In this document: positions 20,133-32,760 of the stretch, one piece after another
Layout: each line of letters begins with the position of its first letter
How positions within the stretch are numbered: the first letter of the stretch is position 1
Assembly: GCA_022865725.1 (NCBI GenBank)
Contig: JALHTP010000024.1
Span: 1-33,204 of the forward strand
Reading direction: 5' to 3'
DNA length: 33,204 bases
From: Methyloceanibacter sp.
Lineage (GTDB): Bacteria > Pseudomonadota > Alphaproteobacteria > Rhizobiales > Methyloligellaceae
Notes under the pieces: generated by a model
Seen by the model: the letters and a program-made list of their open reading frames with translations, nothing else
What the model was told of the DNA's origin: nothing
Databases searched by the model: none
Made by a program: the position numbers and the translations under genes

Positions 20133-20313
20133 CCGCTCCCTCTCGTGTCGCGTTCGCGCCGAAGCGCGACGTGCCGGACGCCATCGCCGTGGTGGACGAA
20201 TCTGGACCGCGGCGCTGATCCTCATGAGCTTATGGCTGCTGGTCACCTGACCATCGCCTTGCCGAAGCCAAAGCTACCGAATAGCTTTGGCACGCAAGGA
20301 CAGATCGATATTT

Positions 20314-20358
20314 GAGCATGATCTTTTCGGAAAACCGGTCTCCACTTTTCCGGATCAT
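20314..20358. repeat. Dispersed REP-like imperfect palindrome (GAGCATGATCTTTTCGGAAAACCGG...CTTTTCCGGATCAT)
   Basis: Arms ATGATC(TTTT)CGGAAAA / TTTTCCGGATCAT; resembles a repeat I recall as common in Rhizobiales intergenic regions. Confidence 0.65.
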
Positions 20359-20377
20359 TCTCCAGGAGGGTCTCGGC

Positions 20378-21898
20378 GTGATCATCGAGTCCCGAGACGT
20401 CCGCGCGTTTCGCGCAGGCATGATCGCCGCTTGCACCTTCGCTCTGCTCCTTGCCGCTACGCCCGCCGACGCCGCGAAGCGGATCGCGCTCGTCATCGGC
20501 AACAACGCCTATGAGAATGTGCCGCAGCTGCAAAAGGCGGTGAACGACGCCGACGCCATTTCCAAGGAGCTCGCCAAGCTCGGCTTCGAGGTGGTCACCG
20601 CGCAAGATGTCGGCCGCCGCGCCATGAGCCGCGCGCTGGTCGAGCTCGAAGGCAAGGTCGGCGCGGGCGATACGGCGCTGGTCTATTTCGCCGGGCACGG
20701 CTTCGCCGTCGACGGCACCAACTATCTTCTGCCGGTCGACGTGCCGGCCGCCAACCCCGGCGAAGAGGGCCTCGTCAAGGATGCGTCGTTTGCGGCAAGC
20801 GGCCTGTCGGACCGCTTGCAGGAAAAAGGGGCGGGAACGGTAATCCTGATCCTCGATGCCTGCCGCGACAATCCCTTCGCGCTCAAAGGCAAACGCTCCA
20901 TCGGCCAGACGCGCGGGCTCGCCCGCATGGACCCGGCGGAAGGCATGTTCGTGCTGTTCTCGGCGGGACAAGGCCAATCGGCTCTCGACCGCTTAAGCGA
21001 CACCGACACCAATCCGAACTCCGTGTTCACGCGCACGTTGCTCGCCGAGATGGAGGTCCCCGGCCTGTCCATGGTGCAGATCGCCAAGAAGACGCAGGCC
21101 AAAGTGCGCGAGCTCGCCGCCAAGGTCGATCATGTGCAGGTGCCGGCCTATTACGACCAGATCGTCGGCGACCTCTACCTCTCGCCCGAAGGCGCCGCAG
21201 AAGCAGGGACCGGCAATGTGGCGAAGCTTCAGGAAGGAGGCGGGATGAGCGTGCTGCCGAAGCAGGAGCAGAAGGTCGCGGCGTTGCCTTCAGCGCCGGC
21301 GCCGCTCGCCAGCTTCACCCGCTCGAACAGCGGCTGGATGGTGAACGTCTCGCTGCCCGAGGCCGCGACCCAATTCGGCTACCGCGTCGGCGAGAAGGGC
21401 GAGTTCACCGATCCCGGCTTCATCGACTCGCTCAACCAGCGCACCGGCGCGCGCATGCCGAAGACCTATTTCGAGATGCCGCTCGACCAGGGCAAGACCA
21501 CGATCTACGTCACTTGGCGCGACAAACGCGGCGAGCAGGCCGAAGTGTTCCCAATCAATTTCGACCCGACCGGAGCGCTGGCCGGGGAGGAGAAGGCGAC
21601 GCTCGAGCAGTTCTGGACGAGCTGGATCGCGTTCCGTGAGTTCCAGGGGATGAAGGTCTATTTCTCCCAGCTCATCACCTATCGCTGCGCGATTCATGAG
21701 GTACGCTACGGCTACAATGACGGTCCGACCGACAAAATCTTCGCCCTGCCGCCTTGCGATCCCGCCGACCCGCATAGCGTGCCTTACGAGGCCAAGATCT
21801 ACATGAACGTGCCGCCGAAGACCGCCTCGATGTCGGTGCACCTCACTTATGTCGACGGCACGAACTCGGCGACGCGCAGCTTCAACGCGCCGAAATAA
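20378..21898 (+). CDS. Secreted caspase-like (peptidase C14 family) protein with uncharacterised C-terminal domain
   Basis: KRIALVIGNNAYENVPQLQKAVNDADAI, YFAGHGFAVDGTNYLLP (His), LILDACRDNPF (Cys); signal peptide; AGGAGGG seven nt before GTG 20378. Confidence 0.88.
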   Translation: MIIESRDVRAFRAGMIAACTFALLLAATPADAAKRIALVIGNNAYENVPQLQKAVNDADAISKELAKLGFEVVTAQDVGRRAMSRALVELEGKVGAGDTALVYFAGHGFAVDGTNYLLPVDVPAANPGEEGLVKDASFAASGLSDRLQEKGAGTVILILDACRDNPFALKGKRSIGQTRGLARMDPAEGMFVLFSAGQGQSALDRLSDTDTNPNSVFTRTLLAEMEVPGLSMVQIAKKTQAKVRELAAKVDHVQVPAYYDQIVGDLYLSPEGAAEAGTGNVAKLQEGGGMSVLPKQEQKVAALPSAPAPLASFTRSNSGWMVNVSLPEAATQFGYRVGEKGEFTDPGFIDSLNQRTGARMPKTYFEMPLDQGKTTIYVTWRDKRGEQAEVFPINFDPTGALAGEEKATLEQFWTSWIAFREFQGMKVYFSQLITYRCAIHEVRYGYNDGPTDKIFALPPCDPADPHSVPYEAKIYMNVPPKTASMSVHLTYVDGTNSATRSFNAPK

Positions 21899-21972
21899 GC
21901 ACCCCTGTTCCCTTTTCGCCCCAGAGACCCTATATCGGTCTTTCCCAGCAACAATCGAAAGGAGGTGATCCA

Positions 21973-22038
21973 GTGTCTCAAGGTTATGGGCCTACGATCC
22001 GGCTAGAGGATGGATCACCAACAGGTTCAATGGCTTAA
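21973..22038 (+). CDS. Putative 21-aa peptide MSQGYGPTIRLEDGSPTGSMA behind a maximal Shine-Dalgarno
   Basis: AAAGGAGGTGATCCA (21958-21972) immediately followed by GTG; SD to start spacing ~7 nt; TAA stop. Confidence 0.45.
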   Translation: MSQGYGPTIRLEDGSPTGSMA

Positions 22039-22118
22039 CGCCTTGAAACCTTAGCCATCCCCCTCCGAAGGTAACCAGTAGGTAACACCAACAGGAGGAG
22101 CCAATGGCCAAAACCCTT

Positions 22119-22152
22119 ACGGTGGCTCGCTTCACGGCGGCCACCGTTTTTC
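22119..22152 (+). terminator. Intrinsic terminator-like hairpin
   Basis: ACGGTGGC-TCGCTTCACGGCG-GCCACCGT followed by T-rich TTTTCTTT. Confidence 0.55.
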
Positions 22153-22188
22153 TTTGGCGCGCGCCCTCCGCAACCTATGGAGGGAAGA

Positions 22189-22485
22189 ATGACACATGCG
22201 TTTTCCCGCCGTCCCGTCACGACTGGCCTTGCTGCGGCCGTGGCAGCTATTCCTGCTACAGCGATAGCGACAGCCGCGCCTCGGATTTCACCAGAGGAGC
22301 GCGTGCGCCGGGCATTGGAGGAGGCGAGGCTAGCCTTCGAAGCATACTACCCCGGCGCCACATTCCATCAGGCGACGTGGAATGAGGCGCGGCCGGACAA
22401 GCTTGCAAGCGACAATTCCGTCGCCTGCCTCTTGGTTATCGCCTCGAGCTACTCAGAAGAAGTGGCCCGCGGCAAGAAGCTATGA
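22189..22485 (+). CDS. Hypothetical protein, Tat-like/secreted N-terminus
   Basis: GGAGGGAAGA SD before ATG; MTHAFSRRPVTTGLAAAVAAIPATAIATA. Confidence 0.65.
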   Translation: MTHAFSRRPVTTGLAAAVAAIPATAIATAAPRISPEERVRRALEEARLAFEAYYPGATFHQATWNEARPDKLASDNSVACLLVIASSYSEEVARGKKL

Positions 22486-22574
22486 CCTCCCTCTGGCCCC
22501 GCGTCCGCATTTGGTACGCGACCAAGCTGGTCGATTTTGCTGAGTGGCTTGAGGGCCGGAAGCGGCGGCGATGA
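22482..22574 (+). CDS. 30-aa peptide MTSLWPRVRIWYATKLVDFAEWLEGRKRRR, ATGA-coupled to preceding ORF
   Basis: Start overlaps the stop of the 22189-22485 ORF; basic amphipathic composition. Confidence 0.5.
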   Translation: MTSLWPRVRIWYATKLVDFAEWLEGRKRRR

Positions 22575-22655
22575 GCCTGCGGGTTAGCGCCCTCGCCCAG
22601 CTTCGTGTATAAAGGTCTCGGCGTCTGGTTTTCCCGGCGCCCCCGCATGCGATAC

Positions 22656-22793
22656 CTAGAACCCCAGTCGCTTCGGCTGGGGTTCTTTATTGGAGGGCAA
22701 TTGATCCTTCCCCACGATAGCAGCGACGAGGAGAGCGACCACCACATTTGCGGCGATCACAGCCAAAAGCACTGTGGAATACAAAAGCAGCAT
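22656..22793 (-). CDS. 45-aa single-TM micro-protein MLLLYSTVLLAVIAANVVVALLVAAIVGKDQLPSNKEPQPKRLGF
   Basis: GGGAG SD before ATG; hydrophobic helix then basic tail; below ORF-track length cut-off. Confidence 0.55.
   Translation of the reverse strand: MLLLYSTVLLAVIAANVVVALLVAAIVGKDQLPSNKEPQPKRLGF
22659..22689 (+). terminator. Intrinsic terminator
   Basis: GAACCCCAG-TCGCTTCGG-CTGGGGTTC then TTTATT. Confidence 0.75.
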
Positions 22794-22866
22794 TGCTCCC
22801 TGAGCAGCATGCTCCCTCGCATTCCACAACTAGCTTTGCGTGAGCTTGGTTCCAGGGGAGCAAGGA

Positions 22867-22897
22867 GGCGTCGGCTTCGGCCGGCGCCCTTTTTGTT
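22867..22897 (+). terminator. UUCG-tetraloop intrinsic terminator (copy 1)
   Basis: GGCGTCGGC-TTCG-GCCGGCGCC then CTTTTTGTTG. Confidence 0.85.
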
Positions 22898-23049
22898 GTA
22901 GGGTCAAACGTTGGTTCCCATCCTCCCGCCAAAATAAGGCGCTCGACAATCGAACTGAAAGGTCCACACTCGACCATCACCGGCCCGCGTCCCCCAGGCG
23001 CCGGTGGCTGAGAGCCTAAGACTCCCGCCTGCAAAGCATGGAGGGAGCT

Positions 23050-23289
23050 ATGGGCTCTCGAAACCCCCCACCCAATTTGTATGACCCGGCGCTGCTAGCC
23101 GCGGTAGAGCAGGCATTCGACGCCACTTGGACGGTGCTAGAGGCTCGCGAGCCGTTTCGCGATTTCGATAAGGACAATGAATTGAAGACTGAGCTGAGTC
23201 ACAAGCTCAACGCTCTTGCTGCCGACGGTGTGACTGATGCCATTGAGCTTCGAGAGTGGGCCCTTGAGGGCTTATCAGGCCATCGGTGA
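23050..23289 (+). CDS. Small hypothetical protein
   Basis: GGAGGGA SD; MGSRNPPPNLYDPALLAAVEQAFDATWTVLEAREPF... Confidence 0.65.
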   Translation: MGSRNPPPNLYDPALLAAVEQAFDATWTVLEAREPFRDFDKDNELKTELSHKLNALAADGVTDAIELREWALEGLSGHR

Positions 23290-23314
23290 TCTCGCCGAGC
23301 GGATTGTGATGCGC

Positions 23315-23515
23315 TTAGCCTTTGGGCCGCGCCGCGCGGGGGTTGTTTCTCTGCTCGCGCGCCATGTTCAAAAGCTGGTCAGAGCGTTTGCCTTTGGTGT
23401 CGATTCCAAGACGCTTTAGCTCAGTCTCAGCATCAGCAACAAGCTGAGCCATTTTCGGCGGGGCTTTGTCCATGCTGTCAGTATGGGCCTTGAGGCGTCC
23501 TGTTTCTAGGGCCAC
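23315..23515 (-). CDS. Small hypothetical protein (GTG 23515 or ATG 23473 start)
   Basis: MDKAPPKMAQLVADAETELKRLGIDTKGKRSDQLLNMAREQRNN; weak SD. Confidence 0.4.
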   Translation of the reverse strand: MALETGRLKAHTDSMDKAPPKMAQLVADAETELKRLGIDTKGKRSDQLLNMAREQRNNPRAARPKG

Positions 23516-23558
23516 GAAAGCCCTGCCACATCGCAGCCCAACCTTCCTTTAGCCCGCT

Positions 23559-23681
23559 TCACTTAATCAGGCACTCAACCCATTCCGCGCCGAGCATATC
23601 GGTCATAGAACACTGACGCCGCACGCTTTGGGCAGCGAACGCGACGATAAGCACTATTAGAAATCCAGCGAGAAGGCGCAT
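23559..23681 (-). CDS. 40-aa secreted micro-peptide MRLLAGFLIVLIVAFAAQSVRRQCSMTDMLGAEWVECLIK
   Basis: AAGGAG SD before ATG; signal peptide; two Cys in mature part. Confidence 0.55.
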   Translation of the reverse strand: MRLLAGFLIVLIVAFAAQSVRRQCSMTDMLGAEWVECLIK

Positions 23682-23791
23682 TGCTTCGCTCCTTCCCCGT
23701 CATGCCGTCCCGGACTTTAGTCTCCGTTGGTCGAAAGCTGAAACTCGAATCAAATTCACCTTCAATGAAGTGTTAATTGGAATGCCTACCG

Positions 23792-24019
23792 ATGGCTCGC
23801 CGCTTTAAACCGCCTTGGACCACCGAACGAATTTCTGGCGGGTATGTCGTGAAGGACGGGACCGGACAGGCGCTCGCCTATGTCTACGCCCGCGAGAAGC
23901 GCGCCGATGCAGACATTGCGAAGGTGCTCACGATGGACGAGGCGCGACGGGTGGCGAGCAGCATCGCCAAGCTGCCGGCGCTGTTAGGCGCGGCGGATCA
24001 ATCAGCCCCTATTTCTTGA
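23792..24019 (+). CDS. Small Rhizobiales-type conserved hypothetical (RRFKPPWTTERISGGYVVKDGTGQALAYVYAREK)
   Basis: Recognised small-protein family pattern; ends DEARRVASSIAKLPALL. Confidence 0.75.
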   Translation: MARRFKPPWTTERISGGYVVKDGTGQALAYVYAREKRADADIAKVLTMDEARRVASSIAKLPALLGAADQSAPIS

Positions 24020-24071
24020 CCTGCACTGATACGCAGAAGGCGCCGCGCGGGGAGGCTGGGCGCTCGCGGGA

Positions 24072-24248
24072 CTAAACGTCCCGAAACACGTTACCGGCAG
24101 CAAGCACTGCATAAGCCACCAACAAAATAGTGAAGCCGGTGCGGCTAAACGGAACTTCGATATGTGCGTAGTGAACGACGACCGCGAACAACGCGAGGAC
24201 GGCTGACGCAATGAAAGTAATCACCTTGGGTGCTGATAGATCAAGCAT
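24072..24248 (-). CDS. 58-aa two-TM small membrane protein MLDLSAPKVITFIASAVLALFAVVVHYAHIEVPFSRTGFTILLVAYAVLAAGNVFRDV
   Basis: GGGGGAG SD before ATG; two hydrophobic helices; missed by ORF track length cut-off. Confidence 0.75.
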   Translation of the reverse strand: MLDLSAPKVITFIASAVLALFAVVVHYAHIEVPFSRTGFTILLVAYAVLAAGNVFRDV

Positions 24249-24347
24249 CGCTCCCCCTTTTCAGCCCGGCCAGTGGGCTTGAAAGGTCAGTTTAGCTTCG
24301 CCCGCACGATAAAGCGATAGTCCATCGGTCGCATGCTTCGGTGATGA

Positions 24348-24378
24348 GGCGTCGGCTTCGGCCGGCGCCCTATTTATG
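24348..24378 (+). terminator. UUCG-tetraloop intrinsic terminator (copy 2)
   Basis: GGCGTCGGC-TTCG-GCCGGCGCC then CTATTTAT; arms identical to copy 1. Confidence 0.7.
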
Positions 24379-24546
24379 TCCGCCATGTCGCAACTGATGA
24401 AGTGCGTGGAGATCTGCCTCCGAAAGCCACACCCACCGCTCGCTGCCGGCTGGCGCCCAAAGATTGCAGGTCAAGCACCCGACAAGGCGTTGGCCGCGAT
24501 TGTCTATCTCGACAAGCTCTTGCTCACAGTTATGACAGCGACCCAT
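24370..24546 (-). CDS. 58-aa zinc-ribbon-like small protein MGRCHNCEQELVEIDNRGQRLVGCLTCNLWAPAGSERWVWLSEADLHALHQLRHGGHK
   Basis: Two CxxC knuckles; true start inside the longer 24370-24960 ORF. Confidence 0.75.
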   Translation of the reverse strand: MGRCHNCEQELVEIDNRGQRLVGCLTCNLWAPAGSERWVWLSEADLHALHQLRHGGHK

Positions 24547-24582
24547 GACGCTACCCTCGCAGGGGGATGTGACCGAATGAGG

Positions 24583-24613
24583 GGAGCTCGCTTCGGCCGG
24601 CGCCCTTTTTGTT
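24583..24613 (+). terminator. Degenerate UUCG terminator (copy 3)
   Basis: GGAGCTCGC-TTCG-GCCGGCGCC then CTTTTTGTTG; 3' arm and tail identical to copy 1, 5' arm mismatched. Confidence 0.5.
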
Positions 24614-24748
24614 GTAGGCGGGTGCGGGGCAATGAGAGGTCCGCTGCGAGGACGGAGCACCCGCTTACACTGCCCCGGTGGCTGCGTGAGCTGTGATACT
24701 ATTCCCCGAAGAGGCGCAAAAACGGTGGGGTGGACAGGGGAGATAAAT

Positions 24749-24874
24749 ATGCGCAATTGCCGAATTCTACTTGTGCTAATCGGAGCTATCGTCGTGCTCC
24801 TGCTAGCTGAACAATCTGCTTCTGCAGATTGCAGTGGATTAAGACGGGGGCCCCTTTCAAGATGCTTGGCGTAA
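24749..24874 (+). CDS. 41-aa secreted micro-peptide MRNCRILLVLIGAIVVLLLAEQSASADCSGLRRGPLSRCLA
   Basis: AGGGGAG SD; signal peptide; short two-Cys mature peptide. Confidence 0.55.
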   Translation: MRNCRILLVLIGAIVVLLLAEQSASADCSGLRRGPLSRCLA

Positions 24875-25032
24875 CAAAGAAAGCTAGCAGAACAGCACAG
24901 GCTAGAAGGAATAGCTAAAGCTGCTTCACACCAAAGAGCCGGGGGTGACAACGCAGACATGCCAATTGATCAAGGGGGAGTTAGTCTGCGGCGCGCCTCA
25001 TCCTCAGTGAGCACGGGCACCCTTTGTCCTCC

Positions 25033-25092
25033 GGACAGATCGCCAGCAACATCGCCAAGCTGCCGACGTTGCTTAAGCCCAAAGCGGATTGA
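25033..25092 (+). pseudogene. C-terminal remnant of a paralog of the 23792-24019 family
   Basis: GQIASNIAKLPTLLKPKAD* resembles RVASSIAKLPALLGAAD of the intact copy; no family N-terminus upstream. Confidence 0.6.
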
Positions 25093-25341
25093 CGGGCGCT
25101 TCAGTCAGAAACGGTAGCCGAATAGTCCAGAGCCACAAGCCGCCCGCTAAGACAGCCCCAATCCGATTTTTTGAACTCAAAGGGGCACCCGTCGGGGCGC
25201 AGCAGCAAAACGCACTTTCACAAAGTCATAAACCGCGGTCGCCGGTCGTCGGAGCCTGGACACTCGCCTCTGGTGAGGCCTAGGCTCCGCGCAAGCGACG
25301 CAAGATCACTTGCGGTCCTTGGTGGACCGCGGTCGACAGGG

Positions 25342-25374
25342 AAGGGCTGCCCTCACGGGCGGCCCTTCTTTTTT
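25342..25374 (+). terminator. Strong intrinsic terminator
   Basis: AAGGGCTGCCC-TCAC-GGGCGGCCCTT then CTTTTTT. Confidence 0.85.
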
Positions 25375-25453
25375 GCGGAGTTCGAGGCCTAAGGACCTCC
25401 CCCGCCGGCTTCATTGAAAGATTGTTCAGACCCTTGGCCGCATTTTAGGGGCC

Positions 25454-26233
25454 ATGGGGGTGAGGGTTGCGTATCTCGTAGCAGGCATTGCCATCGCTGC
25501 ATGCCTGGGGACGCTGGTGGGGTGTGGGGGCGGAGGGACCTTCAACTCCGGCCGGCGCGCGCCCTGGCGCGGCCAGGCCGAGCAAGCCTGCCTCGCAGGC
25601 GGCGCGGTGCAGGCTTCGGCCTACGTCCGCCCCATGGCAGCGATCGACGGGCCCGGTGTTTGCGGGCTGGAGCGGCCGCTTCAAGTCTCGGGTCTGCTCG
25701 GAGGGCGGGTCGGGATCTCTCCTGCGGCGACGATCGACTGCCCGCTGACCGCGGCGCTCGATCGCTGGGTCGCGGCGTCGGTGCAGCCGGCGGCGCGCCG
25801 GTATTTCGGCAGTCGCGTGGTCGAAATCCGGCAGATCGCCTCTTATGGCTGCCGCGGCCGCAACGGCAACAGTTTCGGCAACATCTCGGAGCACGCCTTC
25901 GGCAACGCGCTCGATATGGCCGCATTCCGCCTGGCGAACGGCGAAGACATTGTCGTGGCAAAAGCCTGGTGGCGGGGCACGCAGCGCGAGCGGGCATTCT
26001 TGCAGGAATTGTTCGCGGGCGCTTGCGCGGAATTCTACACCGTGCTCGGACCGGGTAGCGACCGCTACCACTACAACCACATCCATGTGGACCTCCTGGT
26101 CTCCAATGCCAGGAACGGGCGTCACTACTGCCAGCCAGCCCCAGGGCGCGTACCGGTGGCGGAGGCGCCGAGCGATCCGAAAGCCACGGCCTCCGTCAGC
26201 CTGATCCCGTTCGTCGGTCCGGGCACGGACTGA
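25454..26233 (+). CDS. Extensin-like C-terminal domain lipoprotein
   Basis: Lipobox LVGC; SEHAFGNALDMAAFRLANGEDI, YHYNHIHVDLL metal-site-like motifs. Confidence 0.87.
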   Translation: MGVRVAYLVAGIAIAACLGTLVGCGGGGTFNSGRRAPWRGQAEQACLAGGAVQASAYVRPMAAIDGPGVCGLERPLQVSGLLGGRVGISPAATIDCPLTAALDRWVAASVQPAARRYFGSRVVEIRQIASYGCRGRNGNSFGNISEHAFGNALDMAAFRLANGEDIVVAKAWWRGTQRERAFLQELFAGACAEFYTVLGPGSDRYHYNHIHVDLLVSNARNGRHYCQPAPGRVPVAEAPSDPKATASVSLIPFVGPGTD

Positions 26234-32148: not shown

Positions 32149-32193
32149 CTTGATCCCCCTGCGCCCTCCACCCGAGGGCACGGTTAAGGTTGA

Positions 32194-32372
32194 GCCGACG
32201 GCAGGTCTCCTGGCTCGCGGGTCAAAGCCTTCCCTCGGCCTTCCCGGAGCGGATGGCTCCAGTGGCAGGTGGAGGGGCGCTCGCCGCTTACAGTTGCGGG
32301 GGCAGCCGCGGAATTGGGTAAACCCTCACCGCGTTCCCTTTTACGTCCCGCCTCATGCGGGAACCGACGACG
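32194..32372 (-). promoter_or_regulatory. Cobalamin riboswitch upstream of cbtBA-cobPOQ
   Basis: Reverse strand contains AAAAGGGAACGCGGTGA..., GCTGCCCCCGCAACTGTAAGCGGCGAGC, CCGCGAGCCAGGAGACCTGCCGTCGGC. Confidence 0.95.
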
Positions 32373-32377
32373 CGAGG

Positions 32378-32405
32378 ACTATAGCTGCCTTCCCGCGCTT
32401 CGCAA
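32378..32405 (-). promoter_or_regulatory. Candidate promoter for minus riboswitch (TTGCGA-N16-TATAGT)
   Basis: Spacing predicts a start near 32372, at the riboswitch 5' edge. Confidence 0.45.
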
Positions 32406-32425: not shown

Positions 32426-32455
32426 TTGACAAAGCGGCTGGTGGCCGCCTTAAGT
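32426..32455 (+). promoter_or_regulatory. Candidate promoter for plus riboswitch (TTGACA-N18-TTAAGT)
   Basis: Perfect -35; predicted start near 32462, at the riboswitch 5' edge. Confidence 0.5.
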
Positions 32456-32462
32456 GGCCCCG

Positions 32463-32633
32463 ATCGACGGTCTCTCGAATGAGAGCGAAGAGGGAACGCG
32501 GTACGGGGTGTCCCCTAAATCCGCGGCTGCCCCCGCAACTGTAAGCGGCGAGCCGGAGTCACAGAGCCACTGGGGAGGACCCCGGGAAGGCGGCGAAGGC
32601 TGAGACCCGCGAGCCAGGAGACCTACCGTCGAT
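32463..32633 (+). promoter_or_regulatory. Second cobalamin riboswitch, upstream of DUF1636 gene
   Basis: P1 ATCGACGGT/ACCGTCGAT; GAGGGAACGCGGT; GCTGCCCCCGCAACTGTAAGCGGCGAGC; CCGCGAGCCAGGAGACC. Confidence 0.96.
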
Positions 32634-32760
32634 TCTGGTCGCTCGCCGGGCGGGGTGCCTCGGAGCGGTTGGTTCGTTGGCGGCCGGTCCGGCTTAAGGG
32701 CATGTCCGCCGTCACAGCACCCTTGAAGTCGCGGCGAACCATTTTAGGAGCGGCGTCAGG

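Follow-up and report, generated by a model that had tools for sequence, protein, structure and literature searches.

What might be the function of a short reading frame whose start codon directly adjoins a complete complement of the 16S rRNA 3' end and which itself carries a copy of part of the anti-Shine-Dalgarno (anti-SD) sequence? Such an arrangement lies on the forward strand of the window analyzed here, a stretch of 33,204 nucleotides from a Methyloceanibacter draft genome. A preliminary description had reported a 15-nt full-length SD, the GTG at 21973, a 21-amino-acid ORF, and a 9-nt anti-SD copy, all of which were confirmed in the sequence. The SD, AAAGGAGGTGATCCA (21958 to 21972, +), is the exact complement of the 16S 3' end and is followed at once by the GTG of a 21-codon mini-ORF (21973 to 22038, +) that ends with a TAA stop at 22036 to 22038 and whose length is conserved in the family. 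The mimic TGGATCACC (22011 to 22019, +) pairs over 9 bp with 21964 to 21972, and this helix is contained in the minimum free energy (MFE) structure that RNAfold predicts for the window RNA. TGGATCACC has only two sites in the window, the SD and the mimic, where 0.15 would be expected, and all other window matches to the 15-mer have at least 3 mismatches. In the 2.76-Mb draft assembly, from which the 16S gene is seemingly missing, GGAGGTGATCCA occurs a single time.

Layout and family of the element

The RNA lies downstream of a probable promoter (21907 to 21936, +), with a -35-like TGTTCC at 21907 to 21912 and a -10-like TATATC at 21931 to 21936. The family profile shows enrichment of TTG 48 to 50 nt and a weak A/T-rich stretch 21 to 26 nt upstream of the SD, and conservation sets in sharply 8 to 9 nt before the SD; transcription of the window RNA probably starts near 21943 to 21949. 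The 5' leader CAACAATCG (21949 to 21957, +) is kept family-wide and provides the first positions of the Rfam match described below. The SD is near-invariant among relatives, an apparent conservation that is inflated because some of the sequences were gathered by a pattern that includes the SD; the downstream statistics are unaffected by this. A hairpin 3' of the mimic, AGGTTCAA...TTGAAACCT (22023 to 22051, +), appears in predicted folds, and its stem is retained with paired changes in L003, the locus of the closest relative (genome G001, 84% identity). The mimic also has its own competitor: the overlapping GGATGG (22008 to 22013, +) pairs in the MFE structure of 22000 to 22160 with CCATCC at 22055 to 22060, a state that may arise when the SD is unavailable, and both strands are retained in L003. 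An intrinsic terminator, evident in sequence and fold, consists of the stem ACGGTGGC/GCCACCGT and a T run (22119 to 22151, +). With its putative promoter and intrinsic terminator, the window element is a stand-alone unit of roughly 180 to 210 nt.

The 3' part of the RNA, shortly 5' of the terminator, holds a second strong SD, AGGAGGAG, with an ATG (22093 to 22106). The frame that it opens has 93 codons and reads through the terminator, and the predicted fold pairs this SD with CCCCUCC at 22060 to 22066. The second SD and ATG were not seen in other relatives; L003 ends upstream.

A search with positions 21890 to 22200 gave matches in 18 of 41 related genomes, the match shrinking to the 5' core with distance. 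The relatives share a common plan of (u)CAACAAyCG-AAAGGAGGTGATCCA-(G/A)TG-TC, a short ORF, and lastly a hairpin and T run. The window copy matches Rfam family RF01867 (CC2171), a Caulobacter sRNA widespread among alphaproteobacteria, with 38.9 bits (E value of 6.9e-7) over model positions 1 to 159, the full length, and the match ends in the terminator hairpin. This score is under the curated gathering cutoff of 75 bits, and the copy is thus classed as a divergent homolog, short of a formal Rfam hit. Most order-level relatives likewise score below the cutoff, and same-genus relatives reach 96 bits; in Rfam, seven loci from the genus and order exceed the cutoff, and others fall below it. Position in the genome agrees with the score. 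In the genus the RNA lies 3' of LigD, a caspase-domain gene also being upstream in G016, G001, and the window, and the window shares with G013 (96 bits) and G016 (72 bits) a neighborhood of LigD and caspase-domain genes upstream and the gene at 25418 to 26233 downstream. By score and genomic position, the window element is a divergent positional ortholog of CC2171. It has in common with that RNA the same 5' core, the terminator, and the full model length, and has a weak candidate for the long-range P1 helix, but its middle and 3' half are rearranged and it carries a contiguous UGGAUCACC mimic. The caspase-domain (Peptidase_C14) protein encoded directly 5' of the RNA (20312 to 21898), beside the LigD gene, has a signal-like N terminus. 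The roughly 3 kb that separate the RNA from the downstream gene (22177 to 25400) are missing in same-genus relatives, in which that gene lies directly 3' of the RNA.

RF01867 matches were found in about half of the order genomes (151 of 298) and a fifth of the class genomes (49 of 240), and all 23 genomes with a match in a phylum sample come from this order or this class. Among the carriers are Methylobacterium, Microvirga, Bosea, Devosia, Caulobacter, Brevundimonas, and Phenylobacterium; a Mesorhizobium copy, MH_s33, has been detected by RNA-seq. Rfam files the family as an sRNA gene, its model is without the SD:ORF helix described below, and Rfam 15 added one covarying pair. No functional study of RF01867/CC2171 or of the sequence motif was found in the open literature searched. 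Identity with CrfA/SisA or RusT was rejected, these being other RNAs, and so was a repeat or mobile element, as the RNA is single copy in the window genome and nearly always single copy elsewhere.

The preliminary description had counted a leader peptide among the possible readings, and a cis-acting leader or attenuator would here control the ORF that begins at 22177, which lies on the same strand directly 3' of the terminator. Across the family, a terminator-like hairpin is present in 151 of 171 relatives (median distance of its end from the SD, 164 nt), and the downstream gene shares the strand of the RNA in 78 relatives and lies on the opposite one in 86. With orientation random, the RNA is not a cis leader, and an RNA with its own terminator and random downstream strands has no conserved gene to lead; neighbor genes vary between lineages, and the next ORF in the window (22177 to 22485) has no Pfam match. 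A leader peptide is accordingly not supported, the peptide body being near neutral as well, and control in cis, rejected on the strand statistics and largely refuted, is in our judgment very improbable. Still further from probable, to the point of being negligible, is a coincidental match or a piece of a 16S rRNA gene. The 15-mer does equal the complement of the 16S 3' end, but no 16S sequence flanks it, and it is conserved across the class as a unit with the start codon, ORF, and terminator, which refutes this explanation.

The mini-ORF and its pairing with the SD

Among 224 distinct relatives, of which 180 start with GTG and 44 with ATG, the first in-frame stop falls after 19 to 28 codons in 93%, compared with 13% and 16% for the other two frames. 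The mini-ORF, typically of 20 to 27 codons, is by these counts real and maintained. The same cannot be said of the peptide. From codon 5 onward pN/pS is about 0.75 in 40 independent close pairs, in which purifying selection on the peptide was not found, and substitutions at codon positions 1, 2, and 3 number 63, 81, and 73, with no third-position bias. Between L003 and the window, the block AGAGGATGGATCACCA is retained and read in a different frame; both 9-mers are kept in this closest relative, the downstream one again in a different reading frame. The substitution data indicate that the peptide body is nearly neutral and almost free to change, and a conserved peptide was rejected on pN/pS and the frame changes.

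Two groups of sequences stood apart. A clade with 14-codon ORFs (L207, L210, L213, L215, L216, L217, and L231) has a near-constant peptide, VS.TKRCHLAGIAR, with the SD partner at codons 9 to 14, and this peptide may be more constrained than elsewhere. Six Azospirillum loci (L085, L096, L103, L137, L138, and L165) have the same full-length SD with ATG-TCTCA, followed by ORFs of 57 to 59 amino acids with a signal-peptide-like N terminus; they probably encode a separate small exported protein, not homologous to the RNA, and were excluded from the analysis.

The ORFs pair with their own SD more strongly than randomized sequences do. In 171 nonredundant sequences the mean pairing energy was -16.4 kcal/mol, versus -12.3 kcal/mol for dinucleotide shuffles (Wilcoxon, 4e-28), and -16.3 versus -13.5 kcal/mol under synonymous-codon randomization (Wilcoxon, 8e-26), a conservative test in that its codon usage was that of these ORFs pooled. 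With the SD as bait the excess was -2.7 kcal/mol; the reversed SD gave -0.26 kcal/mol, and shuffled baits gave values from -0.7 to +0.7 kcal/mol. The window ORF alone did not reach significance in the synonymous test (p 0.2). The segment that pairs differs by clade: most sequences use CUGGAU plus GCCUC at about codons 14 to 18, the window uses its contiguous mimic, the 14-codon clade uses CGCUGGGAUCGCC, and the MSSG/MSNE clade uses GGAGCAGCCUCC. The partner also covaries with the start codon, GTG going with CUGGA and AUG with UUGGA. CTGGA is present in 84 of 122 GTG-start ORFs and 5 of 31 ATG-start ORFs (Fisher, 1e-7), and TTGGA in 3 of 122 and 13 of 31, respectively (Fisher, 3e-8), P values that exaggerate independence because start-codon type tracks clades. 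Where SD position 15 is a G, CGGAU is commoner than UGGAU, as in L225 with AUCCGAUGA against UCAUCGGAU.

The pairing between the SD and an internal mimic that the preliminary description had proposed thus proves to be complementarity by selection, as seen in synonymous randomization, clade-specific partners, and start-codon covariation. Relatives lacking an exact TGGATCACC have another SD-complementary segment that covaries with the start codon, which answers the refuting condition set in the preliminary description, a loss without compensation. Taken together, these comparisons show that selection, and not chance, maintains the pairing of an ORF segment with the SD and start codon; an RNA unoccupied by ribosomes would then be able to shut off its ribosome site.

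A second, interleaved helix

A long-range helix, P1, joins codons 2 to 5 to the strand directly 5' of the terminator and corresponds to the long-range helix in the Rfam model. The paired strands are UCAUUGUC/GACAAUGGA in the MSHC group, UCAAUGUC/GACAUUG, UCAUUUGUCG/GGACAAAUG (Caulobacter zeae, L121), UCAUAGU/ACUAUG, AGUGGGAU/AUCUCAC, and AAUGAGAUU/AAUCUCAUGG in others. Cross-clade alignments were poor in the middle, and anchored counts were therefore used instead of R-scape. Counts with the 3' strand anchored at the terminator gave 6 or more of the 7 pairs in 76% of sequences and all 7 in 52%; with partners swapped, these shares were 31% and 9%. In the window, the candidate 5' strand GGTTATGG (21982 to 21989, +; codons 4 to 6) forms its best duplex with the candidate 3' strand CCAATGGCC (22101 to 22109, +). 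Its energy of -8.8 kcal/mol is no better than the average of swapped partners, so that P1 is weak here and strong in the family.

The SD:ORF and P1 helices interleave and are mutually exclusive in nested folding (r = -0.86), and they would have to be alternatives or form a pseudoknot. P1 usually beats the SD:ORF helix in full-length folds, in which the latter exceeds a probability of 0.5 in only 22% of sequences; in the full-length fold of the window the SD:ORF helix wins, with 0.69 versus 0 for P1. The SD partner lies about 40 nt and the P1 3' strand about 140 nt downstream of the SD. The SD could for this reason be closed early in transcription, with an exchange following later.

A proposed translation-gated RNA and its alternatives

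Across relatives, comparison at the sequence level shows a maintained ORF, an SD:ORF helix, a P1 helix, and a stand-alone unit. For these features we favor, with confidence that is evenly balanced, a divergent CC2171 ortholog acting as a translation-gated stand-alone RNA. Both helices would be opened first by a 30S subunit caught at the SD and afterwards by the translating ribosome, and without ribosomes the RNA would close. Translation may in this way determine how stable the RNA is or how far its anti-SD-like C-rich segment is exposed, and it would be the act of translation that counts, not the peptide. The catalogued sRNA RF01867 thereby acquires a concrete, testable hypothesis, in which ribosome binding gates a stand-alone RNA, and the analysis adds to the Rfam record a maintained mini-ORF with a body selected to mask its own full-length SD and a second, interleaved covarying helix. 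A bolder version, which we advance only tentatively and regard as rather unlikely, makes the family a class-wide ribosome-sensing RNA. The full complement of the 16S 3' end would capture free 30S subunits in competition with the internal 16S mimic and the interleaved helix, a pseudoknot or two-state switch; the fold, acting in trans, would reflect free ribosomes or the state of translation, and the peptide would be a by-product. As background, 75% of Caulobacter genes start without an SD, and two earlier predicted Caulobacter noncoding RNAs were reported as translated, left unnamed in the main text of that source (PMC4117421).

The main rival to a translation-gated RNA is an ordinary trans-acting sRNA or sponge, with a GGAGG-rich stretch titrating anti-SD-type sRNAs (alphaR8/SisA-D, UUUCCUCCCU) or a CCUC-rich mimic repressing mRNAs, and with incidental translation of the ORF. 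Caulobacter indeed has sRNAs of this anti-SD type, along with CrfA, a G/A-rich RNA that acts as their sponge (PMC12559287), and the RNA studied here is stand-alone with an intrinsic terminator; yet a sponge would leave unexplained both the kept length of the ORF and the part of the start codon in the covariation, and we think it rather improbable. We lean further away from a small mRNA for a functional micropeptide (MSHC...TWxLAS) whose SD:ORF helix only tunes expression. Conserved ORF length and start context, together with the near-constant 14-amino-acid peptide of one clade, would suit it, but the pN/pS value and lack of third-position bias would not, nor would peptides that are unrelated between clades and a mimic that is in another frame in L009 and the window; the conserved MSHC codons are accounted for by the P1 helix. 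This leaves the micropeptide an unlikely explanation.

The favored reading, a translation-gated RNA, has partial parallels elsewhere. In principle it resembles the DUF1127 upstream ORF attenuator of Sinorhizobium meliloti, in which a short ORF has early codons that pair with its ribosome-binding site, so that ribosome arrival determines RNA structure (PMC12218461). That ORF is a cis leader working with Rho on a downstream gene, whereas the window unit is stand-alone with an intrinsic terminator; among attenuator traits, the CC2171-type RNA has the pairing of ribosome-binding site and codons and lacks a consistent same-strand downstream gene. CrfA and SisA-D (alphaR8) of Caulobacter offer pairing of G/A-rich with CCUCC-type sequences in sRNAs of the same class, but between separate RNAs and, in the available part of the report, with no ORF described (PMC12559287), whereas the window SD and mimic reside in one ORF-bearing molecule. 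Extended SD motifs of Staphylococcus aureus likewise show unusually long SD:anti-SD pairing, also with weak start codons and small ORFs; they belong to another phylum, and an internal anti-SD mimic of this kind is not described in the accessible portion of that source (PMC13009471).

Elsewhere in the window, a divergent pair of cobalamin riboswitches about 70 nt apart was found at 32183 to 32383 (-) and 32451 to 32644 (+), each scoring above 130 bits.
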